A stretch of 64,000 nucleotides of DNA, from the NCBI RefSeq assembly GCF_000300515.1, contig NZ_AMSI01000002.1:124001-188000 (forward strand), written 5' to 3'. The notes beneath the pieces are model-generated. The model was not told where the DNA came from and did not search any database. It saw nothing but the letters and a program-made list of their open reading frames with translations. Within the stretch, counting starts at the first letter, position 1, and each line of letters starts with the position of its first letter. Positions 4,947 through 44,217 of the stretch are shown in pieces. Origin of the DNA: Nitratireductor indicus C115. Lineage in GTDB: Bacteria > Pseudomonadota > Alphaproteobacteria > Rhizobiales > Rhizobiaceae. The translations under genes were made by a program, and so were the position numbers.

Positions 4947-5234
4947 TTACTCGACCACCTTCGGCACCACGAAGAAATTGTCTTCCGTGGCCGGCGCGTT
5001 GGCCACGATGTCGGCTGCCTTGTTGCCGTCGGTCACCTGATCGACACGCTTGCGCATTTCCATCGGAATGACGGAGGTCATCGGCTCGATGCCGTCAACA
5101 TTCACCTCGTCGAGCTGCTCGACAAAGCCCAGAATGGCATTCAGCTCGCCGGTCATTCGCTCGGCTTCACCTTCATCGACAGCGATGCGGGCAAGACGTG
5201 CAACGCGCTTTACGGTTTCAATGTCCACGGACAT
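4947..5234 (-). CDS. gatC: Asp/Glu-tRNA amidotransferase subunit C
   Basis: Small structural subunit of GatCAB, about 95 residues, which wraps around GatA and stabilises it. The start is set at [19 protein letters not shown], the conserved family N-terminus; the longer frame is discarded. The segment [24 protein letters not shown] and a C-terminal FFVVPKVVE motif are typical. It is the first gene of a gatC-gatA unit on the minus strand and ends 75 bp before gatA. Confidence 0.96.
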
Positions 5235-28559: not shown

Positions 28560-29264
28560 TCACACGCTGATGAGCCGCTGATTCTCAGCCAGTTCCGCCC
28601 TCAGCTGGGTGCTCGTCCCAGACCAGGAGACCCTCCCTTTTTCCATCACATAGTGCCGGTCGGCAAGATCAAGAAGATGCGAAAGGTTTTTGTCGATCAA
28701 CAAAATGGCCTGACCTGCCGCCTTGAGCTGCCGGATCACCTGCCATATCTGCTCGCGAATAAGGGGGGCCAGGCCTTCGGTTGCCTCGTCCAGGATCAGG
28801 AGACGGGGATTGGTCATCAGCGCGCGCCCGATGGTCAGCATCTGTTGTTCGCCTCCCGAGAGCGAGAAGCTCGCCTGTGCCTGACGCTCATGCAAGCGGG
28901 GAAAAAGTGCGTAAATCCGCTCAAGCGTCCACGGATTTTCGACATTCCGGTGGTTTGCGGCGGTCGCCACAAGATTTTCCCGCACGCTCAGCGTGGGAAA
29001 TATTTCGCGCCCCTCGGGCGCCAATCCGAGCCCCAGGCGCGCAATCCGGTGCGGCGGCAAGCCGTGGCAGCGCTGACCTGCGAATGAAATCGCACCGCGC
29101 GCCGGTGGTGTCAGTCCCATGATCGAACGCACGGTAGTGGTCTTTCCCATGCCGTTGCGTCCCATCAGCGTGACGACCTCCCCCTCGCCCACGGCAAGAT
29201 CGACGCCGAAAAGCACCTGACTTCGACCGTAGAACGTTTCGAGCCCTCGCACTTCAAGAAGCAT
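28560..29264 (-). CDS. livF: Branched-chain-type ABC transporter ATPase LivF
   Basis: Second ATP-binding subunit of a branched-chain amino acid-type (HAAT) importer. The 234-residue protein starts MLLEVRGLETFYG and has Walker A GRNGMGKTT, signature FSLSGGEQQML and Walker B LLILDEATEGLAP. The start overlaps the end of livG by 11 bp. It is the last gene of a minus-strand livK-H-M-G-F-type operon next to an organic-acid catabolic block, so an aromatic or aliphatic acid may be the substrate instead of an amino acid. Confidence 0.93.
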   Translation of the reverse strand: MLLEVRGLETFYGRSQVLFGVDLAVGEGEVVTLMGRNGMGKTTTVRSIMGLTPPARGAISFAGQRCHGLPPHRIARLGLGLAPEGREIFPTLSVRENLVATAANHRNVENPWTLERIYALFPRLHERQAQASFSLSGGEQQMLTIGRALMTNPRLLILDEATEGLAPLIREQIWQVIRQLKAAGQAILLIDKNLSHLLDLADRHYVMEKGRVSWSGTSTQLRAELAENQRLISV

Positions 29265-30015
29265 CCGCTTCCTCCCCCAGATAGGCTTCCCGGACGGCGG
29301 GGTTGTTGCGGATTTCGTCAGGCGAGCCGGTCGCGATGGCCTTGCCGTAGACGAGAACGGTAATCCGGTCGGCCAGGCTGAAAACAGCGTCCATGTCATG
29401 CTCCACGAGCAATGTGGTGACCTGTCCGCGCAAGCCGCGCAAAAGCTCCACCATGATGGCGCTTTCCTGTGGTCCCATCCCGGCCATGGGTTCATCGAGA
29501 AGAAGCAGGGACGGCTCCAGCGCAAGCGCCATGGCGCATTCCAATTGCCTTTGTTGACCATGAGCAAGGGCCGAAGCCAGCCTGTCATGCGCGCCTGAAA
29601 GCCCCACCCGTTCGATCAGTTTGAGAGCCGGCTCCTCGATATCCGCATCCCCCTTGGCCCGCCGCAAGATGCCCGCCCCGCCGGTCATGCGCATCTGCAC
29701 AGCGGTAGCGACGTTCTCAAGCACCGTATAGTCGGGAAAAATCGATGTGATCTGGTAGGACCGCGCAATGCCGAGCCTCGCCCGCCGGGGCGCTGTCGCA
29801 TACGTGATGTCGGCGCCTCGAAACAGGATTCGCCCCGCATCCGGTTTCATTTCTCCTGAGAGTTGCTTCATCAAGGTGGATTTACCGGCTCCGTTCGGGC
29901 CGATCAGCGCATGAATTTCACCGGTACGCACTTCGAGATCGAGACCGTCGGTGGCCTTCAAGGCGCCGAAGCGCTTTTCAAGCCCGTCGACGGCCAGGAG
30001 AAGATCAGCGCTCAT
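29254..30015 (-). CDS. livG: Branched-chain-type ABC transporter ATPase LivG
   Basis: First ATP-binding subunit of the importer, 253 residues. Walker A is GPNGAGKST, the signature is the LivG-type variant ALAHGQQRQLE, Walker B LLLLDEPMAGM, and the H-loop LLVEHDMD. It overlaps the livM stop by four bases and livF by 11, which indicates one tightly coupled operon. Confidence 0.94.
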   Translation of the reverse strand: MSADLLLAVDGLEKRFGALKATDGLDLEVRTGEIHALIGPNGAGKSTLMKQLSGEMKPDAGRILFRGADITYATAPRRARLGIARSYQITSIFPDYTVLENVATAVQMRMTGGAGILRRAKGDADIEEPALKLIERVGLSGAHDRLASALAHGQQRQLECAMALALEPSLLLLDEPMAGMGPQESAIMVELLRGLRGQVTTLLVEHDMDAVFSLADRITVLVYGKAIATGSPDEIRNNPAVREAYLGEEADAS

Positions 30016-31013
30016 TGCCTGGGCCTCCCGGCAAGAAGGCCGTAAAGACCCCGCCTGTTAAACAGCATGACGATGATCAGCAGCGGGCCGAAAACGATCC
30101 GCCAATGTTCCTTGAGGAGTTCCAGCCCGGCCGCATCGAATAGAACCGGCAGATACTCCTCCAGGAGAAGGAAAGCCACGGCGCCGAAGACAGGCCCCAA
30201 AAGCGTGCCGCTCCCGCCCAGAATGACCATGAAAAGAAGTTCGCCCGAGCGGGTCCAGTGCAACACGTCAGGGCTGACATAGCTCGCCTGGTTCGCCAGC
30301 AGCGCGCCCGCAAGCCCGGCCCCTGCCCCCGCGATGACGAAAATGGCAAGCTTGTAGCGGTAGACATTGCAGCCGAGCGTGATCATGCGCGCCTCGTTCT
30401 GGCGTATGGCGCCGAGCGCGCGACCGAACCGCGTTCCCACCAGATAACGGCAAAACAGAAGAAAAGCGAAAAGGACGGCCAGGCAGACATAGAAGAAGGT
30501 CCATTCGCTTGAAAGGTCGAGCGGCCCCAGCCTGTTCGGCCCAGCATACATGAAGAGCCCGTCATCCCCGCCATAGCGCTCCAGCGAAACGGTGATGAAG
30601 AACATCATCTGCGCAAAGGCGAGCGTGATCATGATGAAATAGATGCCGGAGGTGCGCAGGCAGAGCGCGCCGAGAACGAGCGCGACAAGCGCTGAAAAAA
30701 GAATGGCGAGCGGAATGCTCACCAGCCCTTCCACCGTGCCGGGAAGCCCGAAAATCGTGCTGCCCTCAACCGCATGAAAGGACAATATCCCCACGACATA
30801 GGCCCCTACGCCGAGATAGGCTGCATGGCCGAGGCTCACGAGCCCAGTATAGCCCACCAGGAGATTGAGGCTTACCGCAGCCAGCGCATAGATCAGAATA
30901 CGGCTTGCACTCGGAACCAGATAGGCACTGCCTCCGGCTTCCGCCAGAAGCGGAAAGAAGAGCGCCAGAACGACGAGCGCGAGCGTTACGATGCGAAGAA
31001 AACCATCAGGCAT
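30012..31013 (-). CDS. livM: Branched-chain-type ABC permease LivM
   Basis: Membrane permease, 333 residues with about ten helices. It contains the LivM signature SLNLLVGYTGLVSLGHAAYLGVGAY near residues 48-72 and GGSGTLLGPVFGA near the C-terminus, the coupling region for the ATPases. It overlaps livG by four bases (ATGA) and starts two bases after the livH stop. Confidence 0.94.
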   Translation of the reverse strand: MPDGFLRIVTLALVVLALFFPLLAEAGGSAYLVPSASRILIYALAAVSLNLLVGYTGLVSLGHAAYLGVGAYVVGILSFHAVEGSTIFGLPGTVEGLVSIPLAILFSALVALVLGALCLRTSGIYFIMITLAFAQMMFFITVSLERYGGDDGLFMYAGPNRLGPLDLSSEWTFFYVCLAVLFAFLLFCRYLVGTRFGRALGAIRQNEARMITLGCNVYRYKLAIFVIAGAGAGLAGALLANQASYVSPDVLHWTRSGELLFMVILGGSGTLLGPVFGAVAFLLLEEYLPVLFDAAGLELLKEHWRIVFGPLLIIVMLFNRRGLYGLLAGRPRQ

Positions 31014-31015
31014 GA

Positions 31016-31936
31016 TCAGCGCCCTGCCACAACAGGAAAAAGCCCCTTCGGGCGGATGACAAGGATGAGCGCCATAACGATGTAGATGCCCATGGAAGAG
31101 AGGGCCGCCCCCATGCCCGCAGCCTCGGCGGGTGGCAGGAAAAGCCCCAGAAAGTCGCGCAGGAAGGCGCGGCCGAGCGTATCCACCAGCCCGACGAGAA
31201 TGGCGCCTACAAGCGCGCCGCGCACGGAGCCGATACCGCCGATCACCACCACCACGAATGCGAGGATGAGGATCGATTCCCCCATGCCCACTTGCACGGA
31301 AACAAGCGGGCCCGCGAAAGCGCCGGCAAGGCCAGCCAGAACCGCACCGGCAGCAAACAGGAGCGTGTAGAGCCGATCGATATCCACCCCCAGCGCCGAA
31401 ACCATTTCGCGGTTTGTCGACCCGGCGCGGATCAGCATGCCGATGCGGGTTTTCGAGATGAGGAACCAGAGCCCCACGGCACCGGCAAGGCCCGCCAGGA
31501 TCACGCCCAGCCTATAAACCGGATAAGGCGCACCCGGCACGATTTCCACCGAACCGGAAAGCGATTGCGGAAGATCCATGAAAAGCGGAGTACGCCCCCA
31601 GATCATCGTCACCGCCTCGTTAACGAACAGGATCAGGCCGAATGTCACCAGAACCTGATCGAGATGATCCCTACGATAAAGCCGGCGCATCAAGATGACT
31701 TCCATCAATGCGCCGGCAAGGGCGGCAGCCAGCCCCGCCGCAAGAAAGCCCAGCCAATAGGAGCCCGAGGCCATGGAAACGGTGGCGCAGGTATAGGCGC
31801 CGATCATGTAGAGCGAGCCATGCGCCAGATTGATCACGCCCATGATGCCGAAGATCAGCGTTAGCCCGGCTGAAACCAGGAACAGGAACACGCCGAGCTG
31901 CAGCCCGTTCAAAATCTGTTCGATGAAAAGCAGCAT
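31016..31936 (-). CDS. livH: Branched-chain-type ABC permease LivH
   Basis: Membrane permease, 306 residues, about eight helices. Hallmarks are LNGLQLGVFLFLVSAGLTLIFGIMGVINLAHGSLYMIGAY at the N-terminus and VVVVIGGIGSVRGALVGAILVG near the C-terminus. The start at MLLFIEQILNGLQLG is the usual LivH start; 22 residues of open frame upstream are rejected. It is 139 bp downstream of the binding-protein gene, a gap that often holds a stem-loop lowering permease expression (GTTTC-CCT-GAAAC at 32047-32059). Confidence 0.94.
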   Translation of the reverse strand: MLLFIEQILNGLQLGVFLFLVSAGLTLIFGIMGVINLAHGSLYMIGAYTCATVSMASGSYWLGFLAAGLAAALAGALMEVILMRRLYRRDHLDQVLVTFGLILFVNEAVTMIWGRTPLFMDLPQSLSGSVEIVPGAPYPVYRLGVILAGLAGAVGLWFLISKTRIGMLIRAGSTNREMVSALGVDIDRLYTLLFAAGAVLAGLAGAFAGPLVSVQVGMGESILILAFVVVVIGGIGSVRGALVGAILVGLVDTLGRAFLRDFLGLFLPPAEAAGMGAALSSMGIYIVMALILVIRPKGLFPVVAGR

Positions 31937-32075
31937 GATGCGACTATTTTTCCCTGCCTGGGAACGGGACGGCTTGTGCAGCGCCATCCCGCCCGTGAGC
32001 ATCCTGCCTTCCTGCAGAATTAGCTGATGTCTGAAAGCGGAATGGCGTTTCCCTGAAACGGTGCCGCGCCCGGCA

Positions 32076-33257
32076 TCAGTTCAGCTTGCACTCCGCTCCG
32101 TAGACATCGCCATGTTCCTCGACGATGGTCTGCGTCGTCGCGAGCGACAGCTTTCCGTCTGCGCCCTTGCGTGCTTCCAGCAAGTACCAGTTCTGCACCG
32201 GATGCTGATTGGCAGCGAATTTGAATGCGCCGCGCACTGCTTCGAAATCGGCCTCGCGCAGCGCCGCACGGAAACCGTCCGCGTCGTCGAGCACCTTGCC
32301 GCCGGTGTGCTTCAGAGCACTGGCGATGAGGCGGGCGGCGTCATAACCCTGCGCCGCCCAGGGCGTGGGTTCGCGCTTGTAGGCGTCGCGATAGGCAGCC
32401 ACGAAGGCCTTGTTGGCGGCATTGTCGAGGTCGGCGTTCCAATGGGCCGTGGCCCGAATCCCTTCCGCCGCATCGCCGACACCCGCCAGAATGCGCGCTT
32501 CCATGGAAACCATCGGCGCAATGATAGGTATTTCCCCCATCAGGCCCGCCTGCCCGTACTGTTTCAGGAAATTGATGCTGAGGCCGCCGGGCAGGAAATA
32601 GAACACGACATCCGGCTTGTCAGAACGGATGCGCGCAATCTCCGCCGCATAATCCGTCTGGTTCAGCTGGGTATAGAGTTCCTCGACGATTTCGCCCTTG
32701 AAGAAGCGCTTGAACCCGGCAACCGCATCCTTGCCCGCCTGATAGTTGGGCACCATGACGACGGCCTTCTTGTAACCGGCATTGTTGGCCGCAATACCCG
32801 CAGTCTCATGCATGGCATCATTCTGCCACGAGCTGACGAAATAGTTCTCATGGCAGCCCGCGCCCGCCATCGGCGACGGTCCGGCATTGGAAGCCACATA
32901 GAAGCGGCCATTGTTGAGCGCGATAGGCGCCACGACAGGCTGAACATTCGAAAAGATCACGCCTGTCAGAATGGCAGCGTTGTCGCGCCGCACCATGCGT
33001 TCTGCAATCTGCTTGGCGTTTCCGGGATTCAACCCGTCATCCTCCACCAGAAGCTCCACCGGCGCGCCGCCGAGCTTTCCACCCTCCTCGTCTATGGCCA
33101 GCTTGAATCCGTCCCGCATATCCTCTCCCAGGTAGCCGGGAGGACCCGAAAGCGTGGTGATCAAACCGATACGGATCGCATCTTCCGCGGCCGCCGGAGC
33201 CACGAAACCGGCAACGGCGAACGCCAGCGCCGCAAGGCGCACTCCATTCTTCAACAT
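32076..33257 (-). CDS. ABC transporter substrate-binding protein (Peripla_BP_6)
   Basis: Periplasmic binding protein of the LivK/Peripla_BP_6 type, 393 residues, feeding the livHMGF importer. Signal peptide MLKNGVRLAALAFAVAGFVAPAAA precedes EDAIRIGLITTLSGPPGYLGEDMRDGFKLAIDE. Members of this subgroup often bind aromatic or other organic acids, fitting the adjacent catabolic genes, but the ligand cannot be read from sequence. A strong ribosome binding site GGGAGGA precedes this ATG. It is the first gene of the liv operon, divergent from the TRAP operon. Confidence 0.92.
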   Translation of the reverse strand: MLKNGVRLAALAFAVAGFVAPAAAEDAIRIGLITTLSGPPGYLGEDMRDGFKLAIDEEGGKLGGAPVELLVEDDGLNPGNAKQIAERMVRRDNAAILTGVIFSNVQPVVAPIALNNGRFYVASNAGPSPMAGAGCHENYFVSSWQNDAMHETAGIAANNAGYKKAVVMVPNYQAGKDAVAGFKRFFKGEIVEELYTQLNQTDYAAEIARIRSDKPDVVFYFLPGGLSINFLKQYGQAGLMGEIPIIAPMVSMEARILAGVGDAAEGIRATAHWNADLDNAANKAFVAAYRDAYKREPTPWAAQGYDAARLIASALKHTGGKVLDDADGFRAALREADFEAVRGAFKFAANQHPVQNWYLLEARKGADGKLSLATTQTIVEEHGDVYGAECKLN

Positions 33258-33334
33258 GTTTCCTCCCAGAGCCTGTTGCGGTCTCTCCCACCGCCGAAAT
33301 GACACTAGGAGTTGACGCAGGGCAAACCAAACGG

Positions 33335-33340
33335 ATTGTA
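33335..33340 (-). promoter_or_regulatory. Putative -10 element of the liv operon
   Basis: TACAAT on the minus strand, a five-of-six match to the -10 consensus, about 77 bp upstream of the binding-protein start. The -35 position, 17 bp further upstream, falls on the IclR-type site at 33358-33372 and has no consensus of its own, suggesting that a bound regulator acts there. Confidence 0.45.
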
Positions 33341-33357
33341 ACAAACCTTACAGTAAT

Positions 33358-33372
33358 TTCCGCACAGCAGAA
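33358..33372. promoter_or_regulatory. Putative IclR operator, site 1 (liv promoter)
   Basis: TTCCGC-ACA-GCAGAA, a 15-bp quasi-palindrome matching sites at 33493 and 39635. It covers the -35 position of the proposed liv promoter. Size and symmetry are normal for IclR-family operators, and the only IclR regulator in the window is 5.5 kb away in the same gene block. Confidence 0.65.
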
Positions 33373-33492
33373 TAATGACCATAGCATCCCAACCCGGACG
33401 CGCGGTGTCTCATATGCCAGAACCGCATAATTTTCGCGTAGTTCGGGCAGAACGCCATTTGAACGTTGGAATGAAACAACGCCGGCTTCTAT

Positions 33493-33517
33493 TTCTGCAC
33501 TGCGGAAAGAAATTCCG
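33493..33517. promoter_or_regulatory. Putative IclR operator, site 2 (TRAP promoter)
   Basis: TTCTGC-ACT-GCGGAA (33493-33507) followed after five bases by a half-site TTCCG (33513-33517). The same composite arrangement, palindrome plus N5 plus TTCCG, is found at 39635-39660. It ends ten bases before the TTGACA of the TRAP promoter, a position typical of activators. Confidence 0.7.
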
Positions 33518-33526
33518 TAACTTCGC

Positions 33527-33532
33527 TTGACA
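33527..33532 (+). promoter_or_regulatory. -35 element of the TRAP operon
   Basis: A perfect TTGACA. A -10 element at normal spacing is weak (TTTGCT near 33551), as expected for an activator-dependent promoter. The rest of the 377-bp divergent region (33258-33634) shows no gene. Confidence 0.4.
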
Positions 33533-33634
33533 CTTGTTTCGCAGCGCTGCTTTGCTGCACGCCATGGCGATACCGGCCGGGAGGGCTCGTCCCGGATCGT
33601 CCAGCAATCCTTAGATGATTGGGAGGTCAATCAC

Positions 33635-34612
33635 ATGAAACGTGTTTCGATTCTTGCTGCCGTGGCGATGGCACTCGCCGCGGCCGTTCCGGCCCGCGCC
33701 GAAACCCTGACCATGCTTTCGAGCTGGGACGAGAGCTATAATGCCGTGCCGGTTTTCGCGCAGGAATTCGCCAAGCGGCTGACGGAGAAATCCGGTGGCG
33801 AGCTCAGCGTGGAAATGCGCGGTCCCGAAACAGTGCCGCCCTTCGAGCAGCTGCAGCCGGTTTCGGCAGGCCTCTTCAACATGCTCTTCACGCATGGCGC
33901 CTATCATCTGGGCGAAACCACCATGGCCTTCGGCATGGACGCGGTGAAGGATGATCCGCAGGCGCGCCGCGAAAGCGGTATCTATGACCTGATCGACGCC
34001 CATTATCAGCAGCGCAATCTGAAACTCATCGGCGTCTTCTCCGCCGCTTCCGGCTACCACATCCTGCTCAAGAACCCCATCGCGGAAGACGGCGCCCTCA
34101 AGGGTCGCAAGATCCGGGCCTCGGGCACCTATCACGACCTCGTCAATGAACTGGGCGGTTCGGTGGTGACGTTGCCGGCAAGCGAAATCTATTCCGCGCT
34201 CGAGCGCGGTGTGGTGGATGGCGCAGCCTGGCCCGTCTTTGGTGCTATGGATTACAAATGGTACGAGGTTGCCGGGTACATGACCCGTCCCACCTTCGGC
34301 ATCACCAACCTGTCACTGTTCATGAACCTGGACACCTGGAATGGATTGTCGGCCGAGCAGCAGACAATGGTGACCGACATCGCCAAGGAGCTCGAGATCG
34401 AGGGGCGCAAGCATTTCGAGGGCCTTTGGGCGAAGGAAGACAAGGCCATGCAGGATGCCGGCCTCGCCATCACCGAGTTCGGTCCCGACGTGGCCGGCAA
34501 GGTCGACGGTATCTTCGCGGCAGGTGTGTGGAAGCAGGTGGAAGACAAGGCCGGCGAAGATGGCAAGGCTTTCCACAAGCTGGCCCTCGAAAAGAACCTG
34601 ACGGCTCAGTAG
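33635..34612 (+). CDS. dctP: TRAP transporter substrate-binding protein DctP
   Basis: Periplasmic binding protein of a tripartite ATP-independent (sodium-driven) importer, 325 residues. Signal peptide MKRVSILAAVAMALAAAVPARA is followed by the DctP fold; KGRKIRASGTYHDLVNELGGSVVTLPASEIYSALERGVVDGA holds the Arg that salt-bridges a substrate carboxylate in this family. The start is fixed by GGGAGG ten bases upstream. It is followed 15 bp later by dctQ. The ligand is presumably a carboxylic acid used by the downstream CoA-pathway genes. Confidence 0.94.
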   Translation: MKRVSILAAVAMALAAAVPARAETLTMLSSWDESYNAVPVFAQEFAKRLTEKSGGELSVEMRGPETVPPFEQLQPVSAGLFNMLFTHGAYHLGETTMAFGMDAVKDDPQARRESGIYDLIDAHYQQRNLKLIGVFSAASGYHILLKNPIAEDGALKGRKIRASGTYHDLVNELGGSVVTLPASEIYSALERGVVDGAAWPVFGAMDYKWYEVAGYMTRPTFGITNLSLFMNLDTWNGLSAEQQTMVTDIAKELEIEGRKHFEGLWAKEDKAMQDAGLAITEFGPDVAGKVDGIFAAGVWKQVEDKAGEDGKAFHKLALEKNLTAQ

Positions 34613-34627
34613 GAAAGGCCATCTGCC

Positions 34628-35116
34628 ATGCGCTGGTTGTTGCGCCTGCATGACGGGCTGACAAATGCGAGCTTCTGGGGGGCCACCGTCGCGGTGGCCT
34701 ATCTCACCCTTGTGACAGCCTGGGAAGTCTTCGGCCGCTATGCATTGCAGGCGCCAAGCGACTGGGCGCCGGACACCGCAGCCGTCAGTTTTGCGATGAT
34801 CACCTTCCTCGCAGCCCCGATGCTCACCCGCAACACCGGCCATGCGCGCATGACCTTCATCGCCGAGAAGGCTTCACCGGAAACAGCCCTGTGGCTTAAC
34901 CGTTTCGTGCTCTTTCTTGGCATGGCCGCCTGCGGCCTTTGCGCCTGGTACGGCATTGCCGAGACCGCCCGCCAGGTGACACGGGGCGTCAAGATGATTG
35001 CGGTCACCCCCATCCCCAAATGGGTGGTGACGGGCGTCATCGCCTACAGCCTCATGAGCATGGCGCTCTATTTCCTGCGCCACCTTGCGGCGACCTTCCG
35101 GTCGCCGGCCCGATAA
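34628..35116 (+). CDS. dctQ: TRAP transporter small permease DctQ
   Basis: Four-helix small membrane subunit, 162 residues. The first helix carries the typical EVFGRYAL motif (WEVFGRYALQAPSDWAPD) and TGHARMTFI follows, both characteristic of DctQ. It lies between dctP and dctM with short gaps of 15 and 22 bp, so the three genes form one transport operon. Confidence 0.93.
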   Translation: MRWLLRLHDGLTNASFWGATVAVAYLTLVTAWEVFGRYALQAPSDWAPDTAAVSFAMITFLAAPMLTRNTGHARMTFIAEKASPETALWLNRFVLFLGMAACGLCAWYGIAETARQVTRGVKMIAVTPIPKWVVTGVIAYSLMSMALYFLRHLAATFRSPAR

Positions 35117-35138
35117 CCCTTATCGACGGACCTCTTTC

Positions 35139-36443
35139 ATGGACTGGTGGATCCTTCTCAGCGGCGTCTTCGTCATGCTCCTCGTCTTGTTTGCGACGGG
35201 GCTGCCGATCTTCCTGTCGTTCCTGGTCCTGAACATTGCAGCGCTCTATCTGCTTTCGGGAAATTTCAATGGCGTGCTCCTGATCATCAATTCGATGTTC
35301 GACACGGGCACCAGCTTCTCGCTCGCAGCCATTCCGCTCTTCATCCTGCTTGGCGAAATCCTGTTCCGCTCGGGCTCGGTGAACATCCTCTTCAACGCAG
35401 TCGACGCCTTGATCGGCAACATCCGGGCGCGCCTTTATGCCGTTGCCATCGTTCTTTCGACCATTTTCGGCGCGCTGTCCGGTTCGGCCATGGCCGTGGC
35501 CGCCATGATGGGCTCGTCCCTGCTTCCAGAGATGCGCTCGCGCGGCTATGACCGCAACCTGTCCATCGGTGCGCTGCTGGCCGGCGCCAGCCTTGCTCCG
35601 ATCATCCCGCCCAGCGTGATGGCCGTGGTGCTCGGCATTCTGTCGAAGGTCTCGATCGCAGCTCTTCTGATCGCCGGCATTCTGCCCGGCATTCTGCTTG
35701 CTCTCGCCTTCTTCGTTTATGTGGTCATCCGCGGGCGCATCAATCCCGCCCTTGCGCCCGTCAGCGCGAGAAGCGGATTGCCCGCCCGCGAACGGCTCGC
35801 CCTCGTCACCCGTGCACTGCCTTTCCTGCTCATCATCGCATCCATCCTGGGCTTCATCCTGGCCGGCATCGCCACACCGACGGAAGCCGCCGCCGTGGGC
35901 TGCGTGACAGCGGCGATCATCTGCGCGATCTTCGGAAACCTGACCTGGGCCAAATTCGTCGAATGCGTACGCTCGACGGCGGGCATCACCACGGTGATCA
36001 CCATCATCATGGTGTCGTCCGTGTCCTTCAGCCAGGTGCTCAACATGACCGGCTCGACCTTCAAGCTGGTTGCCGCCGTTACGGCCCTGGACCTGCATCC
36101 AGCGATCATGTTCATCCTGCTTCAGGTCCTGCCCTTCGTGCTGTGCATGTTCATCGACCAGATCGCGCTGATGATCATGCTCGTTCCGCTCTATGGCCCC
36201 ATCGTGCTGGCCATGGGCTTCGATCCGATCTGGTTCTGGACGATCTTCCTGATCAACATGTCCATCGGCGGCATCACCCCACCTTTCGGTTACACGCTGT
36301 TTGCACTGCATGGCGTGACGGAAGACGTGCCGCTGCAGTCGATCTTCCGTTCGGTCCTGCCCTTCATCGGCATTTTCATTCTGGTGATCGGGCTATTGGC
36401 CCTGTTCCCTGACATCATCCTCTTCCTGCCATCCTTCCTCTGA
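35139..36443 (+). CDS. dctM: TRAP transporter large permease DctM
   Basis: Large membrane subunit that performs sodium-coupled transport, 434 residues and about 12 helices. Visible family blocks include IFGALSGSAMAVAAMMGSSLLPEM, GASLAPIIPPSVMAVVLG, GIATPTEAAAVGC and NMSIGGITPPFGYTLFAL. The start at MDWWILLSGVFVMLL follows dctQ by 22 bp; 18 residues of upstream open frame are rejected. The SDR gene follows after 13 bp, extending the operon. Confidence 0.94.
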   Translation: MDWWILLSGVFVMLLVLFATGLPIFLSFLVLNIAALYLLSGNFNGVLLIINSMFDTGTSFSLAAIPLFILLGEILFRSGSVNILFNAVDALIGNIRARLYAVAIVLSTIFGALSGSAMAVAAMMGSSLLPEMRSRGYDRNLSIGALLAGASLAPIIPPSVMAVVLGILSKVSIAALLIAGILPGILLALAFFVYVVIRGRINPALAPVSARSGLPARERLALVTRALPFLLIIASILGFILAGIATPTEAAAVGCVTAAIICAIFGNLTWAKFVECVRSTAGITTVITIIMVSSVSFSQVLNMTGSTFKLVAAVTALDLHPAIMFILLQVLPFVLCMFIDQIALMIMLVPLYGPIVLAMGFDPIWFWTIFLINMSIGGITPPFGYTLFALHGVTEDVPLQSIFRSVLPFIGIFILVIGLLALFPDIILFLPSFL

Positions 36444-36456
36444 AAGGAAACGCCCC

Positions 36457-37236
36457 ATGGATCTCGGTATTTCCGGTCTCAACGCCCTCGTGCTCGGCAG
36501 CTCGCAGGGGCTCGGTTTCTCCTGCGCCAAGGCGCTTGCCGAAGCCGGCGCACGCGTGGTGGTCAACGGGCGCGATCAAAAGAAGGCCGAAGCTGCCGCA
36601 ACTTCCATCGGCCATGGCGCGGCGGCGGTGGCAGGCGACGTTTCCGACCCGGAGGGCCGCGCCCGTATCGTGGAAGAAGCGCGCGCGCTCACCGGCCCGA
36701 TCTCCATACTCGTCACCAATGCTGGCGGACCGCCCCCCGGACCTCTTGAAACCCATGGTCACGATGTCTGGCTGAAGGCGCTGGAAAGCAACATGCTCTC
36801 GGCCATCGACATGGTCCGGCTCGTTCTGCCCGGAATGCGCGATGCCGGTTTCGGCCGCATCGTCAACGTCACCTCCTTCACCGTGCGCGAACCCTATCCG
36901 AATATGGGCCTTGCAACCGGCGTGCGCGCCGGCCTGACGGGAGCCATGGCAAGCCTTGCCCGCGAAGTGGCTGCCGAAGGCATCACGGTCAACAATCTTC
37001 TCCCCGGCCTGATGGACACCGGCGCGCTGAAACGCGTCTATGACGCGCAGGCCGCGCGCGAGAACATCACACCCGAAGCGGCCAAGACCCGCATGGCCGA
37101 CAGCGTTCCGATGAAACGTCTGGGTGAAGCCGATGATTTCGGCCCGGTCTGTGCATTCCTGTGCTCGCGCCACGCCGGTTACATGACAGGCCAGAACATC
37201 ACCGTCGACGGCGGTCTGGTTCGCGCGCTTCTCTAG
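36457..37236 (+). CDS. SDR-like protein lacking the YxxxK pair
   Basis: A 259-residue Rossmann protein of the short-chain dehydrogenase family, resembling 3-oxoacyl-ACP reductase-like members. The nucleotide loop is GSSQGLG, NAGG follows, and the C-terminal TGQNITVDGGLVRALL is typical. Where the catalytic Tyr-x-x-x-Lys should be, the sequence reads LATGVRAGL, so Tyr is Ala and Lys is Arg. A subgroup of SDR proteins with an imperfect cofactor loop and no standard tetrad is known; function is unclear. It sits 13 bp after dctM in the catabolic operon. Confidence 0.85.
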   Translation: MDLGISGLNALVLGSSQGLGFSCAKALAEAGARVVVNGRDQKKAEAAATSIGHGAAAVAGDVSDPEGRARIVEEARALTGPISILVTNAGGPPPGPLETHGHDVWLKALESNMLSAIDMVRLVLPGMRDAGFGRIVNVTSFTVREPYPNMGLATGVRAGLTGAMASLAREVAAEGITVNNLLPGLMDTGALKRVYDAQAARENITPEAAKTRMADSVPMKRLGEADDFGPVCAFLCSRHAGYMTGQNITVDGGLVRALL

Positions 37237-37337
37237 AGCATTTTGCAGTCAGAAAAACGCATACGACGCCCGCATAAGTGCGGGAAAACAAGGAGATAGA
37301 GTAGAACATCGTTTCCGCGAAACGATGGAGCGCTCTG
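37235..37337. repeat. Dispersed intergenic repeat, copy 1
   Basis: Begins AGCATTTTGCAGTC directly at the SDR stop codon, contains GACGCCCGCATAA, a perfect hairpin CATCGTTTC-CGC-GAAACGATG, and ends GAGCGCTCT. A shorter, diverged copy of its first 70 bases occurs at 51948. The arrangement fits rhizobial intergenic mosaic elements. Confidence 0.6.
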
Positions 37338-37361
37338 GATTTCGCAGAAGGATTACCCGGC

Positions 37362-38858
37362 ATGATGGACATGAATGCGCCGCAACTGTCGCTCGGCGTG
37401 ATCGGCGCCGGCGCCATGGGAACAGGCATCGCCCAGGTCGCAGCGACAGGCGGCATCGACGTTATCGTCTTCGACACGCGCCCCGGCGCTGCCGCCAAGG
37501 CTTGCGAAGGCATTGCAGCGCGCCTGTCAAAACGCGCCGCCGAGGGCAAGATGCCCACCGAAGACGCAGACGCTGCGGCCAAGCGGCTGCATCCGGCCGC
37601 AAGCCTTACGGATATCGCCCCCTGCGCCATCGTCATCGAAGCCATCGTTGAAGACCTGACGGTCAAGACGGAACTTTTCAGCGAACTGGAAAAGCTCGTC
37701 GCACCGGACGCCATCCTCGCCTCCAACACATCCTCCCTGCCCATCGGCGCCATTGCTGCCGGGTTGCAACGAAAGGACCGCGTTGCCGGTCTTCATTTCT
37801 TCAATCCCGTACCCGTGATGAAACTGGTTGAGATCATTCGCGGTCCCGATACCACCGAGGCCGTCGCAGAAGCGCTCTTCGTCCTGGCGAGGCGTCTCGG
37901 GCGCACACCGGTGCTCGTCAAGGACACGCCAGGCTTTCTCGTCAATTTCGGCGGACGCGCCATCAACACGGAAGCGCTCGCGCTTGCCCATGAGAACGTC
38001 GCCTCCCCCGCGGAAATCGATGCGGTGATGCGTGACTGCTACGGCTTCCGCATGGGGCCTTTCGAACTGATGGACCTGACCGGCGTCGATGTGAACTTCC
38101 CCGTCACGCGCTTCATCTACGAAAGCTTCTTCGACGACCCGCGCCTGCGATCCACTCCCATGCACCGCTACAAGCTTGAGACGGGCCAGCTCGGCCGCAA
38201 GACCGGACGTGGCTTTTATTCCTATGCCGAAGGTGCTGAAAAACCTTCAGCCGACACCCGAACCGGTGCAAACCCAGCTTCTGCTGTTTTCATCCACGGT
38301 GAAATGCGCGGTCTCGAAACGCTCCTCGCCGAATGCGGCACGGACATTCTTGCCTCCGATGACGGCACCGCGCCCATTCTGGCCGCCCCCCTCGGCGAGG
38401 ATGCCTCCGCCTATGCAGCTCGCAACGGCTTGGATCACCGCCGCCTGGTCTGCATCGACATGATTTCGGACACTGCAAAGCGCGTTACGCTCATGACCTC
38501 ACCTGGTGCCGAACGCGCGGTTCTCGAAAGCGTTATTGCGATTTTTCAGGAAGCGCGTGCCGTCACCGCTATAGCGGATTCTCCGGGCTTCATCGGCCAG
38601 CGTGTCGCCGCCATGGTCGCCAATCTCGGCTGCGAAATGGCCCAGACCGGCCTAGCCTCGGTGGAAGACATTGACCTCGCCATGCGGCTTGGCCTCAACT
38701 ACCCGAAAGGCCCGCTCGAACTCGCGGACGCCATGGGCCCCGAGATCGTCCACCGGATTCTGACCGCCGTGCAGGCACTGACCGGCGACGACCGGTATCG
38801 CCCCAGCCAGTGGCTTCGTCGTCGCGCGATGCTGGGCCTGTCGGCCCGTCAGGCCTGA
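37362..38858 (+). CDS. 3-hydroxyacyl-CoA dehydrogenase
   Basis: NAD-dependent oxidation of 3-hydroxyacyl-CoA to 3-oxoacyl-CoA. The 498-residue protein is the PaaH/HbdA-like long form: Rossmann loop GVIGAGAMGTGIA (residues 13-25), catalytic His145 in LHFFNPVPVMKLVEI, one 3HCDH C-terminal domain (MGPFELMDLTGVDV) and a second one at the end (LGLNYPKGPLELADAMG). PaaH acts in phenylacetate breakdown, but no other paa ring-opening genes are present, so the substrate remains open. It works with the ligase, crotonases and thiolase downstream. Confidence 0.92.
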   Translation: MMDMNAPQLSLGVIGAGAMGTGIAQVAATGGIDVIVFDTRPGAAAKACEGIAARLSKRAAEGKMPTEDADAAAKRLHPAASLTDIAPCAIVIEAIVEDLTVKTELFSELEKLVAPDAILASNTSSLPIGAIAAGLQRKDRVAGLHFFNPVPVMKLVEIIRGPDTTEAVAEALFVLARRLGRTPVLVKDTPGFLVNFGGRAINTEALALAHENVASPAEIDAVMRDCYGFRMGPFELMDLTGVDVNFPVTRFIYESFFDDPRLRSTPMHRYKLETGQLGRKTGRGFYSYAEGAEKPSADTRTGANPASAVFIHGEMRGLETLLAECGTDILASDDGTAPILAAPLGEDASAYAARNGLDHRRLVCIDMISDTAKRVTLMTSPGAERAVLESVIAIFQEARAVTAIADSPGFIGQRVAAMVANLGCEMAQTGLASVEDIDLAMRLGLNYPKGPLELADAMGPEIVHRILTAVQALTGDDRYRPSQWLRRRAMLGLSARQA

Positions 38859-38860
38859 GT

Positions 38861-39619
38861 TCAGACGGGAAGCGCCGGCCCCAGTATTTCGGCCACCTCC
38901 TTTAGCGCATCGGCAAGCGTCGTGCGCATCGTCTGTTCCGGGATGGATCCCGTCGCCACGGGGATGGTCAGGGCGGCATATTCGCCCTGATTGTAGACAG
39001 GCACCGACACACCGCCGATGCCCGGATTCCACAGGTTGCGAACGATTGCCACGCCATCGCGCCGACATTCGGCCACGGCCTCGGTGAAAGCTTCCGGGTT
39101 CTGCCCCGTGCGCGTCATCTCTGCGCGCACCCGGGTTGCCAGGAGGCGCCGCTCCGCATCGGGAAGTGCTGCCACCAATGCGATGCCCGCCGCCGATACC
39201 GGGATACGCAGGCGCCCGCCAGTGGCGAGCCTGACCGCAACAAGATTGGCTCCCTCGATCACCGCCACAAAGGTGATGTGCAGCTTGTCGCGGATCGCCA
39301 GTGCCGCCGTTTCCCCGGTGGTGCGGCTCAATTGCTCCAGATGCGGGCGCGCCTGTTCCAGAAGCGGCATGCCGGCAAGGACGGGATAGCCGAGGGTGAG
39401 GTTTTTGGGCGTCAGCTCGTATGCCCTGTTCGAGCGACTGAGGCGCACATACCCCATCATGGTCAATGTGTGGGTCAGGCGGCTGACGGTCGACGGCGCA
39501 AGCCCCGTCATCTTCGCAAGGTCACCATTGGTCAGCGGCTGCTGCGCCCGGGACAGTGATTCCAGTACGGCAAGTCCCCGTGCCAGCGCTTCCACGAATT
39601 GCCGGTCCTTATCGCTCAT
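38861..39619 (-). CDS. IclR family transcriptional regulator
   Basis: A 252-residue regulator: N-terminal winged helix (VLESLSRAQQPLTNGDLAKMTGLAPSTVSRLTHTLTMMGYV) and C-terminal effector-binding domain (LHITFVAVIEGANLVAVRLATGGRLRIPVSAAGIAL to GGVSVPVYNQG). Many IclR proteins of this type sense the substrate of an adjacent catabolic pathway. The ATG at 39619 is used; a GTG three codons earlier is possible. It is convergent with the dehydrogenase gene (2 bp apart) and divergent from the CoA ligase, with an operator-like site 16 bp before its start. Confidence 0.92.
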   Translation of the reverse strand: MSDKDRQFVEALARGLAVLESLSRAQQPLTNGDLAKMTGLAPSTVSRLTHTLTMMGYVRLSRSNRAYELTPKNLTLGYPVLAGMPLLEQARPHLEQLSRTTGETAALAIRDKLHITFVAVIEGANLVAVRLATGGRLRIPVSAAGIALVAALPDAERRLLATRVRAEMTRTGQNPEAFTEAVAECRRDGVAIVRNLWNPGIGGVSVPVYNQGEYAALTIPVATGSIPEQTMRTTLADALKEVAEILGPALPV

Positions 39620-39634
39620 TTCCTCCACCCAACT

Positions 39635-39660
39635 TTCTGCACAGCGGAAGTCCTTTCCGC
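39635..39660. promoter_or_regulatory. Putative IclR operator, site 3 (iclR/CoA ligase region)
   Basis: TTCTGC-ACA-GCGGAA (39635-39649), five bases, then TTCCGC (39655-39660). GCGGAA and TTCCGC also form a perfect 6-bp dyad. The site is 16 bp upstream of the iclR start, suited to autoregulation, and 144 bp upstream of the CoA ligase start. Confidence 0.7.
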
Positions 39661-39803
39661 AAAATACGTTTGCAGTATGCCGGTTTTTCCCGGAAAGTCA
39701 CCCGCAACCTGCACAGGCCAAATGATTGGAAATTCATGCTTCCGCCCCGGGTCTGCCGCATATAAGGGGCTGGAACGAAAGACAATTCAGGGAGGACGTG
39801 GCG

Positions 39804-41327
39804 ATGCTTACGGGGGATATGCTGCGCCGCTCTGCGGAACGCTTTCCGCAGAAGCCGGCTATTCTTTGGCAGGGTACCTCGCTGAGCTATCGCGAGCTGG
39901 ACCGCCAGGCGAACCAGCTTGCCAATGCGCTCATCGGGTACGGTATCGCAAAGGGAGCCAAGGTCGGCATCATCAGCCGCAATCGCACCGAATATGGCAT
40001 TGCATTCTTCGGGGTGGCCCGCTCCGGTGCGGTGATCGTCAATGTATCCGTGCTCTATGCGCCCGACGAATTGGCCTATGTGCTGAACAAGGCTGACATC
40101 GAACTCCTCTTCTATGAAGAGATGTTCGCGCCGAAGGTCGACGCCGTGCGCGATCAACTGCCCCAACTTCGCGAAGCCATCTGCATTGGTGGCGAAGACG
40201 ATGCTTTCCGTGCCTTTTTTGCAAAAGCCTCAAGCGAATATCCGGATATCGAGATCGGTGAGGACGACCCCTTCTGCATGACCTATACGGGCGGCACGAC
40301 TGGACGCCCCAAAGGTGTTCTGACAAGCCACCGCAACCGCATGATCACCGCCCATACGGTGATGGTCGAGGAGGCGATCGACGAACGGGACGTGGTGGGC
40401 ATCGTCACCCCGTTGTTCCATGTCGCGGCGCTGAACATCATGTTCCAGCCGGCGGTTCTGGCCGGCGCGACCTCCACCTTCCTCAGCAAGTGGAACGTCG
40501 ACGACTTCGCTACAATGGCCAAAGACACCGGTATGACGGCCGCCTTCATGGTGCCGACACAGGTTTCCATGGTGGTCAGCGCGCCCAATTTCGACGCGGA
40601 GAATTTCGCCGCCTGGCGCAAGCTTTCCTTCGCCGGCGCGCCGATGCCCGACTGGGTGCAGGTGGAAATGCTGAAACGCCTGCCGGATGTCAGGATGACG
40701 CAGATCTACGGCCAGTCCGAGATGGGCGTTTTGACCTCGTTGCGCCATTGGTACCTGCCTGAGAAGCTCGGCTCCATCGGCCGTCAGGCCTACAATGTGG
40801 ATGTTGCCGTGATCGACCGCGAGGGCCGTCCCGTCGCCGTCGGCGAGATCGGCGAAATCGTCTCGCGTGGCGAAAACGTAATGCTCGAATATTACAACGA
40901 ACCCGAGCAGACCGCCGCTTTCTGGAAGCATGGCTGGGCGCATACGGGCGATGTCGGCACCATTGACGAGGATGGCTTCATCACGCTTGTCGACCGCTCC
41001 AAGGACATGATCATCTCGGGCGGCGAAAACGTCTATCCGAAAGAGATCGAGAATGCGATCTACGAACATGAAGCCGTTGCCGAATGCGCGGTCTTCGGCA
41101 TCCCCGACGACAAATGGGGCGAGGTTCCGGCCGCCTATGTGCAGTTGAAGGCAGTAGCGGCCATTTCGGAAGATGAGCTTGTGGAACATTGCGCCCAGCG
41201 GCTGGCCCGCTTCAAGCGCCCCCGCATTGTGAAATTCGTCACCGAATTCCCCAAAACGCCGATTGGCAAGATTCAGAAAAACATCCTGCGCGAGCCCTAC
41301 TGGAAGGACCGGGAGAAGAAGATATGA
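39804..41327 (+). CDS. Acyl-CoA synthetase (ANL superfamily)
   Basis: Activates a carboxylic acid to its CoA thioester with ATP. The 507-residue protein has the AMP-binding P-loop [20 protein letters not shown], the hinge region [14 protein letters not shown] and the C-terminal catalytic Lys in TPIGKIQKN. Length and lack of a membrane segment fit short, medium or aryl acid ligases; the acid is unknown. The start is fixed by GGGAGG ten bases upstream. It is the first gene of a four-gene operon with ATGA-type overlaps. Confidence 0.92.
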
Positions 41328-42133
41328 CCGACCGCTACGCAAAATATCAGCGCCTGAAATTCGATTGGCCGGACGAACGCATTCTGCGCGTGACGATGGA
41401 AAATCCAGGCCGCCTGAACTCCGCCGACCGGATCATGCACGGCGAGCTGGTCGAGGTATGGCGCGATATCGATAGCGACCCCAATGTCAGCGCAGCGATC
41501 ATTCGCGGCGCGGGCAATGCCTTCTCCGCTGGCGGCGATCTCGATCTCGTCAAGGAGATGAGCGAGGATTTCGAGACCCTCACCCGCGTTTGGAAAGAAG
41601 CGCGCGACCTAGTCTACAACCTCGTCAACTGCTCCAAGCCGCTGGTTTCGGCAATGGAAGGACCGGCCGTCGGCGCTGGTCTCGTTGCCGGGCTCCTGGC
41701 GGATATCTCCATCGCCTCGCGCACCGCCCGCATCATCGACGGCCATACGAGGCTCGGCGTTGCAGCCGGCGATCACGCGGCAATCGTCTGGCCGCTTCTG
41801 TGCGGTCTGGCCAAGTCGAAATATTATCTGATGCTGTGCGAACCCGTCAGTGGAGAGGAAGCTGAGCGCATCGGCCTCGTTTCCTTGTGCACGGAACCCG
41901 AGGACTTGCACGACAAGGCGCTTGAAGTGGCGAGAAAGCTTGCGGTGGGGTCCCCCACTGCTCTGCGCTGGACCAAATACGCGCTCAACAACTGGCTGCG
42001 CATGGCCGGCCCCACATTCGACACCTCATTGGCGCTCGAATTCATGGGTTTCAATGGCCCGGACGTGCGTGAAGGCCTCGCCTCGCTCCGTGAAAAGCGC
42101 AAGCCCGAATTCAATCCGAAATGCCCCCTGTGA
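41324..42133 (+). CDS. Crotonase-family protein lacking both catalytic Glu
   Basis: A 269-residue member of the enoyl-CoA hydratase/isomerase superfamily. CoA and oxyanion-hole elements are present ([26 protein letters not shown]). The two catalytic Glu of hydratases are missing: GGGLEL is GAGLVA, and PEVKLGI is GHTRLGV. An Asp in VAAGDHAAI is a candidate replacement, so isomerase, hydrolase or decarboxylase chemistry is possible. It overlaps the CoA ligase stop by four bases, so it is translationally coupled and probably acts on the ligase's product. Confidence 0.85.
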
Positions 42134-42144
42134 GGTCCTGATCC

Positions 42145-43350
42145 ATGCGGGAAGCCTATATCTGTTCCGGTGTACGCACTCCGATAGGCCGCTATGGCGG
42201 CGCGCTCGCTTCCGTACGGCCAGATGATCTGGCCACCGTTCCTCTGCGCGCCCTGATGGAGCGGCACAAGCAGGTGGATTGGGCTGCCGTTGACGATGTA
42301 ATCCTTGGCGCGGCCAATCAGGCCGGCGAGGATTGCCGCAACGTCGCGCGCATGGCCTCCCTTCTGGCGGGCCTGCCGGAAGAGGTTTCAGGCACGACGG
42401 TGAACCGCCTGTGCGGCTCCGGCCTCGATGCCGTTGCCATGGCGGCGCGCGCCATTCGCGCCGGCGAGGCCGAACTCGTCATTGCGGGCGGTGTGGAATC
42501 CATGTCACGCGCGCCCTTTGTGATGGGCAAGGCCGAGACTGCCTTTTCCCGCCAGGCGGAGATTTTCGACACCACGATCGGATGGCGCTTCGTCAACCCT
42601 TTGATGAAGAAGGGTTTCGGCGTGGATTCCATGCCTGAAACGGCGGAAAATGTTGCCGCTGAGTTCAATGTCTCGCGTGCAGATCAGGACAAGTTCGCCC
42701 TGCGCAGCCAGGAAAAGGCTCTCAAGGCGCAGGAAAGCGGCAGGCTCGACCGCGAAATCATTCCGGTTTCGATCCCGCAACGCAAGGGCGATCCGATCGA
42801 GGTGAGCGCCGACGAGCACCCGCGCCGCACGACGCTGGAAAAGCTTGCCGGCCTCCCTACACCGTTCCGTGCGGGCGGATCCGTGACCGCCGGCAATGCT
42901 TCCGGTGTCAACGATGGGGCCGCAGCCCTGATCGTCGCCTCCGAGGAAGCAGCCGTGAAATATGGGCTGACGCCGCTGGTGCGGGTTGCGGGAGCCGCGA
43001 CGGCCGGCGTCCCGCCCCGCATCATGGGCATGGGCCCCGCGCCCGCGAGCAAGAAACTGCTCGCGCGCCTCGGCCTCGGTGTTGCTGACATGGACATCGT
43101 CGAACTCAACGAGGCCTTTGCCGCGCAAGGCCTGGCCGTCCTGCGTGACCTTGGCCTTCCCGATGATGCCGATCACGTCAATCCGAATGGCGGCGCCATT
43201 GCGCTCGGCCACCCGCTCGGCATGTCCGGCGCCAGGCTCGCGCTTACCGCCACGCACGAATTGTTGGAACGCAAGGCCGACCGTGCCCTGTGCACCATGT
43301 GCATCGGTGTGGGCCAGGGCATCGCCATGGTCCTGGAGCGTGTGAAATGA
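42145..43350 (+). CDS. Acetyl-CoA acyltransferase (thiolase)
   Basis: Cleaves a 3-oxoacyl-CoA to acetyl-CoA and a shortened acyl-CoA. The 401-residue protein carries the full thiolase set: Cys90 (NRLCGSGLD), His356 ([16 protein letters not shown]) and Cys386 ([10 protein letters not shown]). The form [16 protein letters not shown] and overall length resemble 3-oxoadipyl-CoA thiolases (PcaF/PaaJ), though the substrate cannot be fixed. It follows the crotonase by 11 bp and overlaps the second crotonase by four. Confidence 0.94.
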
Positions 43351-44120
43351 GCGACATCGTCCTGCTGGAAAGACCGGACCCCGCCATTGCGGTCGTGCGG
43401 ATCAACCGCCCCGAGGTCCGCAACGCCCTCAATCTGGAAGTGCGCCAGAAAATGGCGGCGATCTTTCGCGATTTCATGGACGATCAGGCGCTGCGCTGCG
43501 TGATCCTCACGGGCAATGAGGAAGCATTCGCAGCAGGTGCTGATATTCTGGACATGTCCCGGATCGACGCTGTCGCCATGTATCATCGCCACACTGAACG
43601 GCTCTGGTCGGCGGTGTCGGACTGTCCAGTGCCGGTTATCGCTGCCGTCAACGGCTTTGCGCTCGGCGGCGGTCTGGAGCTTGCCATGCATGCCGACATC
43701 ATCGTGGCCGGGCGCGGCGCGAAACTCGGCCAGCCCGAGGTGAAGGTCGGCATCATGCCCGGCGCAGGCGGCACGCAGCGACTGACCCGCGCCGTCGGGA
43801 AATTTCGCGCCATGCTCCTCTGCCTGACGGGAGACATGATCGACGCCGATGAAGCCTATGCGATGGGGCTCGTCAGCCTGCTTACCGACGATGAAGCCGT
43901 GATGGACAAGGCCATGGAGCTCGCGGGAAAAATCTCCCGCCTTCCCCCGATCGCCGTCGCTCAGATCAAGGAAGTGATCCTGGCAGGTCCCGAAGCCCCG
44001 CTTCAAACGGCACTTGCCCTGGAGCGCAAGGCCGTGCAGCTCCTGTTTGCGACCCGCGACAAGCACGAAGGCATGCAGGCATTTCTGGAGAAGCGCAAAC
44101 CGAATTACACCGGCTTATGA
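43347..44120 (+). CDS. Enoyl-CoA hydratase
   Basis: Hydrates 2-enoyl-CoA to 3-hydroxyacyl-CoA. The 257-residue protein has both catalytic residues, Glu111 (GGGLELAMHAD) and Glu131 (QPEVKVGIMPGAGGTQRL), and the NPxxRNAL start region. It resembles PaaF-type hydratases. It overlaps the thiolase stop by four bases and ends the operon. Its product would be the substrate of the 3-hydroxyacyl-CoA dehydrogenase encoded at 37.4 kb. Confidence 0.94.
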   Translation: MSDIVLLERPDPAIAVVRINRPEVRNALNLEVRQKMAAIFRDFMDDQALRCVILTGNEEAFAAGADILDMSRIDAVAMYHRHTERLWSAVSDCPVPVIAAVNGFALGGGLELAMHADIIVAGRGAKLGQPEVKVGIMPGAGGTQRLTRAVGKFRAMLLCLTGDMIDADEAYAMGLVSLLTDDEAVMDKAMELAGKISRLPPIAVAQIKEVILAGPEAPLQTALALERKAVQLLFATRDKHEGMQAFLEKRKPNYTGL

Positions 44121-44217
44121 AGCTGCCGGCGTTCGCTGGCTGCACCTGAGCGAAACGGTTCCCTCCGGGGCGATTCTGCTGTAGGCACTGTGCGGTCAAT
44201 TGTGAGAGCCTGCCACA

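Follow-up and report, generated by a model that had tools for sequence, protein, structure and literature searches.

What controls the catabolic genes in the middle of this stretch of Nitratireductor indicus C115 DNA (64,000 nucleotides, referred to below as the window), and does one regulator act at all of their control regions? An earlier note, made from the sequence alone, had pointed to a 15-bp quasi-palindrome with half-sites TTCYGC and GCRGAA at three such regions and had proposed a single IclR regulon. A pattern scan of the whole window with TTCYGCACWGCRGAA returns exact matches in precisely these places, given here on the plus strand: TTCCGCACAGCAGAA at 33358-33372 in the liv promoter, with its edge about 100 bp before the start codon of a liv-type solute-binding protein (SBP; ATG 33257, minus strand); TTCTGCACTGCGGAA at 33493-33507, 128 bp before dctP (ATG 33635) and thus upstream of the genes for a TRAP (tripartite ATP-independent periplasmic) transporter, a short-chain dehydrogenase/reductase (SDR) and a 3-hydroxyacyl-CoA dehydrogenase (HACD); and TTCTGCACAGCGGAA at 39635-39649, 16 bp before iclR (ATG 39619, minus strand) and 155 bp before the divergent CoA-ligase gene (ATG 39804). 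There is no fourth exact copy in the window, as the note had said, and none in the rest of the genome (4,991,032 bases). Our reading, to which we assign a probability of roughly 0.85, is that the motif would serve as operator for the IclR-family protein encoded at 38861-39619, a regulator predicted to activate catabolism and uptake and to repress its own gene.

Two of the three palindromes are followed, at a distance of exactly 5 bp, by the additional TTCCG half-site that the note had reported: TTCCGT at 33513-33518 and TTCCGC at 39655-39660, both on the plus strand. The liv palindrome has such a third box on neither side. Relaxing the pattern adds nothing notable in the window: the 17 matches found with up to three mismatches are not unusual against shuffled sequences (11.8 +/- 4.0; 12 of 100 shuffles reach 17), so that the exact copies alone are distinctive. 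Genome-wide, up to two mismatches give 35 forward and 31 reverse matches, compared with 20 and 33 for a reversed control, which is not a clear excess. A single mismatch adds three places, each within an open reading frame (ORF) of at least 100 aa. We rejected them as signs of a wider regulon in this genome, since one falls in a gene for an M24 peptidase, one in a methyltransferase gene and the third in an ORF before lnt, which may not be a gene because it lacks a Pfam match at E<=1e-5. As the consensus was written after the three copies had been seen, one could argue that three promoter-region words merely look alike by chance. However, by a hand calculation the chance of all three genomic copies falling inside 6.3 kb is about 5e-6, and we regard the recurrence at orthologous places described below as already refuting this explanation, whose probability we consider negligible.

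The gene next to the third site encodes a protein of 252 aa (38861-39619, minus strand) that belongs to the IclR family of transcription factors, with scores well above the Pfam cut-offs for both HTH_IclR (58.8 vs 22 bits) and IclR_C (93.7 vs 24 bits). Its best NCBIfam match and nearest subfamily is TIGR02431 (PcaR/PcaU/PobR), yet its score of 149.6 bits stays below the curated cut-off of 284.75 for that subfamily. A solved structure, 8eju (a 'Pca regulon' protein), resembles it by sequence match only. No orthologue of iclR was found in the other 10 genomes of the genus (E<=1e-30) or in the other 394 genomes of the family (E<=1e-50), and therefore neither group can test conservation of the sites. 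Three of the 11 genus genomes, the present one included, contain TTCYGCANWGCRGAA, and the copies in the other two (G005 and G008) sit within ORFs; the strict extended pattern with three boxes is present in one of the 395 family genomes searched, namely this one with two matches, and in none of the other 394. Across the class (385 genomes), two matches to the protein besides the present genome were obtained at E<=1e-36, with 36% and 38% identity, and among the best 40 of 333 plasmid records identity was about 32-36%. A first scan of a genome-contig collection with the IclR protein gave no match.

The same collection was then scanned with the motif alone as query, in the form TTCYGCANWGCRGAANNNNNTTCCG, which is the window pattern with its middle base loosened. 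At least 117 stretches matched, and 80 loci with 82 sites were analyzed; by a hand estimate about 15 matches are expected by chance in the whole 257-Gb collection. The scan reached an iclR orthologue twice: in the metagenome-assembled genome bin21, where the protein is 68% identical and 28 bp separate the site from the tblastn match, and in Microvirga alba, where the protein is 61% identical and the matched site lies 1.7 kb from iclR, before the HACD gene. Altogether, for 31 of the 82 sites a match to an iclR homologue starts no more than 250 bp away, a zone that makes up 2.8% of the sequence of these loci (binomial p 4e-27). When 248 genomes of the Microvirga family were searched with the protein (E<=1e-60), the regulator was found in four, Microvirga itself and G830, G838 and G870; the three loci added in this way have IclR proteins 59-61% identical to that of the window, and the sites are present.

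Five orthologous clusters could thus be compared with the window (L165/L166, L173, L174, L175 and L168), the bin21 contig being short and ending inside dctP. The palindrome, with at most one mismatch, occurs in the spacer between iclR and the CoA-ligase gene in all five, upstream of HACD in four of the four loci with that region in view, and between SDR and ABC (ATP-binding cassette) transporter genes likewise in four of four. The motif therefore recurs at orthologous control regions in the genomes that carry the regulator, and these regions account for 14 of the 18 palindromes (one mismatch at most) in the six cluster stretches; the remaining four are at positions 5146 and 6672 of L166, 1579 of L173 and 13624 of L174. 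Microvirga's third exact copy (L167) is in an unrelated place, with both copies of that locus within ORFs. On the ABC side the next gene in L165 and L175 encodes an SBP about 25% identical to that of the window, and in L173 and L174 the detected ABC genes begin about 2 kb further on. An orthologue of the window's liv operon is also present in G870 (SBP 80% identical), with a two-box site upstream, and around this site the liv upstream regions of the two genomes align poorly. A lack of conservation in relatives, which the note had named as grounds for refutation, is what the genus and family searched show, but solely because those genomes lack the regulator; the five orthologous loci elsewhere show conservation.

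The third box is conserved along with the palindrome. At 5 nt from it, the orthologues have TTCCGC, TTTCGC or TTCTGC (TTYYGC) in the iclR/CoA-ligase spacer (5/5) and before HACD (4/4), and TTTTGC before the ABC genes (4/4). In the iclR/CoA-ligase spacer, identity is 85% in the operator columns, 51% in the 5-nt gap and 57% in the rest of the gapless spacer (permutation p 1e-5 for operator columns against the rest), and it reaches 89% in a TTGC hexamer downstream. A wider three-box pattern, TTCYGCWNWGCRGAANNNNNTTYYGC, was defined after the orthologous sites had been seen; its presence in four of the four iclR-bearing genomes is not independent, because the pattern was widened after viewing those very sites. 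The independent figure is its rarity elsewhere, with a match in two of the 244 genomes that lack an iclR orthologue. Because the same site stands beside the same regulator gene in distant relatives, it is very probably the docking site of that regulator, and binding of IclR to the sites is, from sequence, very likely. Both the observation of the earlier note and its core interpretation are right, and the five orthologous loci, together with a motif scan that led to iclR orthologues, lend strong support to a single regulon over the three control regions.

The sites are placed with respect to possible promoter elements much as the note had described, over the -35 position of liv, just upstream of TTGACA for TRAP and next to the iclR start, and two details can be added. 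From the third box to TTGACA (33527-33532, plus strand) there are 8 nt, and the site at 39635 would also serve the CoA-ligase gene, the iclR-proximal and CoA-ligase sites being the same DNA. There, a -35-like TTGCAG (39670-39675, plus strand) follows the third box by 9 nt, and 17 nt beyond it lies a -10-like GAAAGT (39693-39698, plus strand), which is GAGAGT in two of six loci. The TTGC hexamer 9 nt past the third box is found in all six loci (window and five orthologous), and TTGAC 8 nt past it in the window TRAP promoter and in three of four orthologous HACD promoters. If this hexamer is the -35 element, the palindrome centre falls near -62 in the TRAP and CoA-ligase promoters. A centre near -62, upstream of -35, is the usual position of an activator site. 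At liv, a possible -10, TACAAT (33335-33340, minus strand, read by eye), lies 17 nt from the palindrome arm GCGGAA, which would be the -35. The assignments of -35 and -10 elements are by eye and by conservation, because a consensus promoter scan reported none of them.

That scan result is one of several that weigh against our reading: none of the inferred TRAP, CoA-ligase and liv promoters was returned. The HACD promoter of G830 lacks TTGAC after the third box, and no conservation of the sites is visible in genus or family, whose other genomes are without the regulator. In the motif-only scan, 20 of the 31 iclR-adjacent sites come from Cupriavidus and are not independent, which leaves 11 from elsewhere, including bin21; of all 31, 13 are situated in a longest ORF of 110 aa or more; and for 51 of the 82 sites no match to an iclR homologue begins within 250 bp (28 of these in such ORFs, 23 outside). 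One of the two TTCYGCWNWGCRGAANNNNNTTYYGC sites in genomes lacking an iclR orthologue is within an ORF, and the other (L179) is between divergent ORFs, at a locus where nothing resembles the cluster proteins. Sites of this class without a nearby iclR homologue are what one would expect if they belonged to another regulator and their adjacency to iclR were a coincidence of a shared cluster. However, a site adjoins iclR in the window and in all five orthologous clusters, the 11 scan loci outside Cupriavidus, bin21 again included, likewise have theirs near an iclR homologue, and the sequence is close to a published class of IclR motifs (PMC8222616), so that we consider another regulator very improbable.

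This resemblance extends to the layout of the site. Three-box sites have been described in 32 orthologous groups; PcaU, PobR and HmgR were examples known before, and PcaU requires the third box for binding (PMC8222616). A third half-site facing the palindrome, at the 5-6 nt spacing of group 2, is present at two of the three window sites, both at exactly 5 nt, and absent from the liv sites of the window and of G870. Judged by sequence, the present sites are three-box IclR operators of the kind already known, and the 'extra half-site' of the earlier note is the third box of such an operator. PcaU and PobR of Acinetobacter baylyi and HmgR of P. putida share with the window a palindrome with an external direct half-site repeat as well as catabolic targets. 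In contrast to these systems, no ring-cleavage gene is among the cluster genes examined (Pfam/NCBIfam), the third box is missing from one of the three sites, and the half-site is TTCYGC rather than the GTTCGA listed for PcaU (PMC8222616). PobR of PMC12285266 was not usable as a comparison, being annotated there as a member of the AraC family.

Among the group 1 motifs of the same survey is WTTYCRYW3RYGRAAW, of the WTT-11-AAW subgroup (Suvorova and Gelfand 2021, PMC8222616), and by hand comparison each window site fits it at 14-15 of 17 positions. They depart from it at the centre, where ACW puts a C in the middle, and in one arm, which has T or A where the consensus has C or G; the match is better at several of the orthologous sites (TTCCGC...GCGGAA). 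The window site before iclR is centred 23 nt upstream of the ATG, compared with a commonest IclR site position of -22 in that survey. In the open-access literature text, no paper was found to carry any of six 15-mers of this class, one of which is a window site.

Cupriavidus and other groups likewise have TTCYGCANWGCRGAA-N5-TTCCG within 250 bp of the match start of a PcaR/PcaU-like iclR homologue. Apart from that of bin21, these homologues are 27-43% identical over the tblastn pieces listed, and the Cupriavidus sequence differs downstream. In Cupriavidus (L035 and 19 other loci) the three-box site reads TTCCGCATTGCGGAA-N5-TTCCG, with TAGTATA downstream, and lies within 250 bp of an iclR homologue that is PcaR/PcaU-like in the one tested (L043); it is apparently a conserved IclR operator of its own. 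Two further observations came from the motif-only scan. Shimia haliotis (L077, 5984-6079) has two facing three-box sites 71 bp apart, with no iclR homologue in the 8 kb examined. A longer conserved element, MATTCTTTCCGCANTGCGGAATGAATTTCCGAAA, is common to two Ancylobacter and two Xanthobacteraceae loci (L038, L040, L064 and L102), and no iclR homologue was found within any of them.

Together, our data suggest a model in which each TTCYGC...GCRGAA palindrome would take up one IclR dimer through its winged helix-turn-helix domains, while the third box, 5 bp on, would accept a further subunit, so that the protein may bind as a tetramer. With an inducer bound, possibly an acid or its CoA ester, the regulator would switch on uptake (TRAP and liv) and a CoA-dependent degradation ending at a thiolase of the 3-oxoadipyl-CoA type. 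At the TRAP-SDR-HACD and CoA-ligase promoters the third box is just upstream of a -35-like hexamer accompanied by a poor -10, which would be the placement of an activator, and the site 23 nt before the iclR ATG may at the same time hold down expression of iclR itself. Given binding, we lean towards activation as the direction of control. A pure repressor, using the same protein and the same sites to block all promoters until an inducer releases it, seems to us the less probable arrangement. It would agree with the typically repressing IclR proteins of aromatic catabolism (PMC13273656) and with the liv palindrome, which overlaps a possible -35 and is also overlapped by a plus-strand match that the promoter scan did give (CTTACA-18-AATAAT, 33347-33376). 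However, in both window and orthologues the boxes of the TRAP and CoA-ligase promoters stop 8-9 nt short of the -35-like hexamer, on its upstream side, rather than covering -35, -10 or start.

Under the activator model, liv needs separate consideration, as its site is the only bare two-box one of the three and overlaps a possible -35; control there may be by repression or by activation of a different kind. The different regulatory outcomes foreseen in the earlier note are supported only in part: the liv site differs, but the TRAP and iclR/CoA-ligase sites have one geometry, so that three outcomes are reduced to two. A tentative extension, which we hold to be rather doubtful, is that one IclR protein reads two operator grammars, with three boxes upstream of -35 conferring activation and a bare pair over the liv -35 acting differently; with two grammars in one regulon, the third box would therefore be the element that selects activation. 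The bare two-box site at the orthologous liv genes of G870 bears on this idea.

The putative regulon comprises genes on both sides of iclR. The liv-type ABC transporter occupies 28560-33257 on the minus strand, with the SBP (32076-33257) and ATPases (29254-30015 and within 28560-29588) assigned by profile and the permeases (31016-31936 and 30012-31013) by ORF and position, similar ORFs being present in relatives. On the plus strand follow dctP (33635-34612, an SBP by profile), dctQ (34628-35116) and dctM (35139-36443; both by ORF and position, with orthologues in bin21), SDR (36457-37236) and a PaaH-type HACD (37362-38858; both by Pfam/NCBIfam). Beyond iclR, also on the plus strand, are the AMP-binding CoA ligase (39804-41327; by profile, with orthologues in relatives) and, by NCBIfam, a PRK07327-type member of the enoyl-CoA hydratase family (ECH1, 41324-42133), a PcaF-type 3-oxoadipyl-CoA thiolase (42145-43350) and a PaaF-like enoyl-CoA hydratase of PRK08138 type (ECH2, 43347-44120). 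The SDR-HACD spacer (37237-37361) contains an interspersed repeat of about 100 bp with 41 genome matches at E<=1e-5, itself included; its other copies are 73-80% identical.

In the five orthologous clusters, identity to the window proteins over the parts present is 59-68% for IclR, 62-76% for SDR, 63-69% for HACD, 76-78% for the CoA ligase (82 residues only in bin21), 84-87% for ECH1, 73-76% for the thiolase and 72-74% for ECH2, the last three not being seen on the short bin21 contig. Gene order differs: the Microvirga-family clusters have SDR after ECH2, with HACD under a separate promoter that faces a PaaG-type gene. This gene adjoins HACD in relatives, and one of three checked scores below the model cut-off. 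By their predicted functions, the CoA ligase, the two enoyl-CoA hydratases, the PaaH-type HACD, the PcaF-type thiolase and the relatives' PaaG-type gene point to a route of the 3-oxoadipyl-CoA type. Occurrence of the regulator in one of 395 genomes of its family, compared with four of 248 in another family, may reflect horizontal acquisition of the cluster (28560-45678). A plasmid search with the CoA ligase gave no match of at least 60% identity, and the ECH1 neighbourhoods on four plasmids (Cupriavidus, Achromobacter, Paraburkholderia and Pseudosulfitobacter) were rejected as orthologous, being different clusters.

For N. indicus, the finding gives a previously uncharacterized catabolic cluster a predicted regulator, predicted operators and probable limits of its regulon, and it would tie both an ABC and a TRAP transporter to a single pathway of CoA-dependent degradation. 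For the IclR family, the alignment of six clusters that combine a three-box operator with a downstream -35-like element should be useful for understanding the role of the third box.

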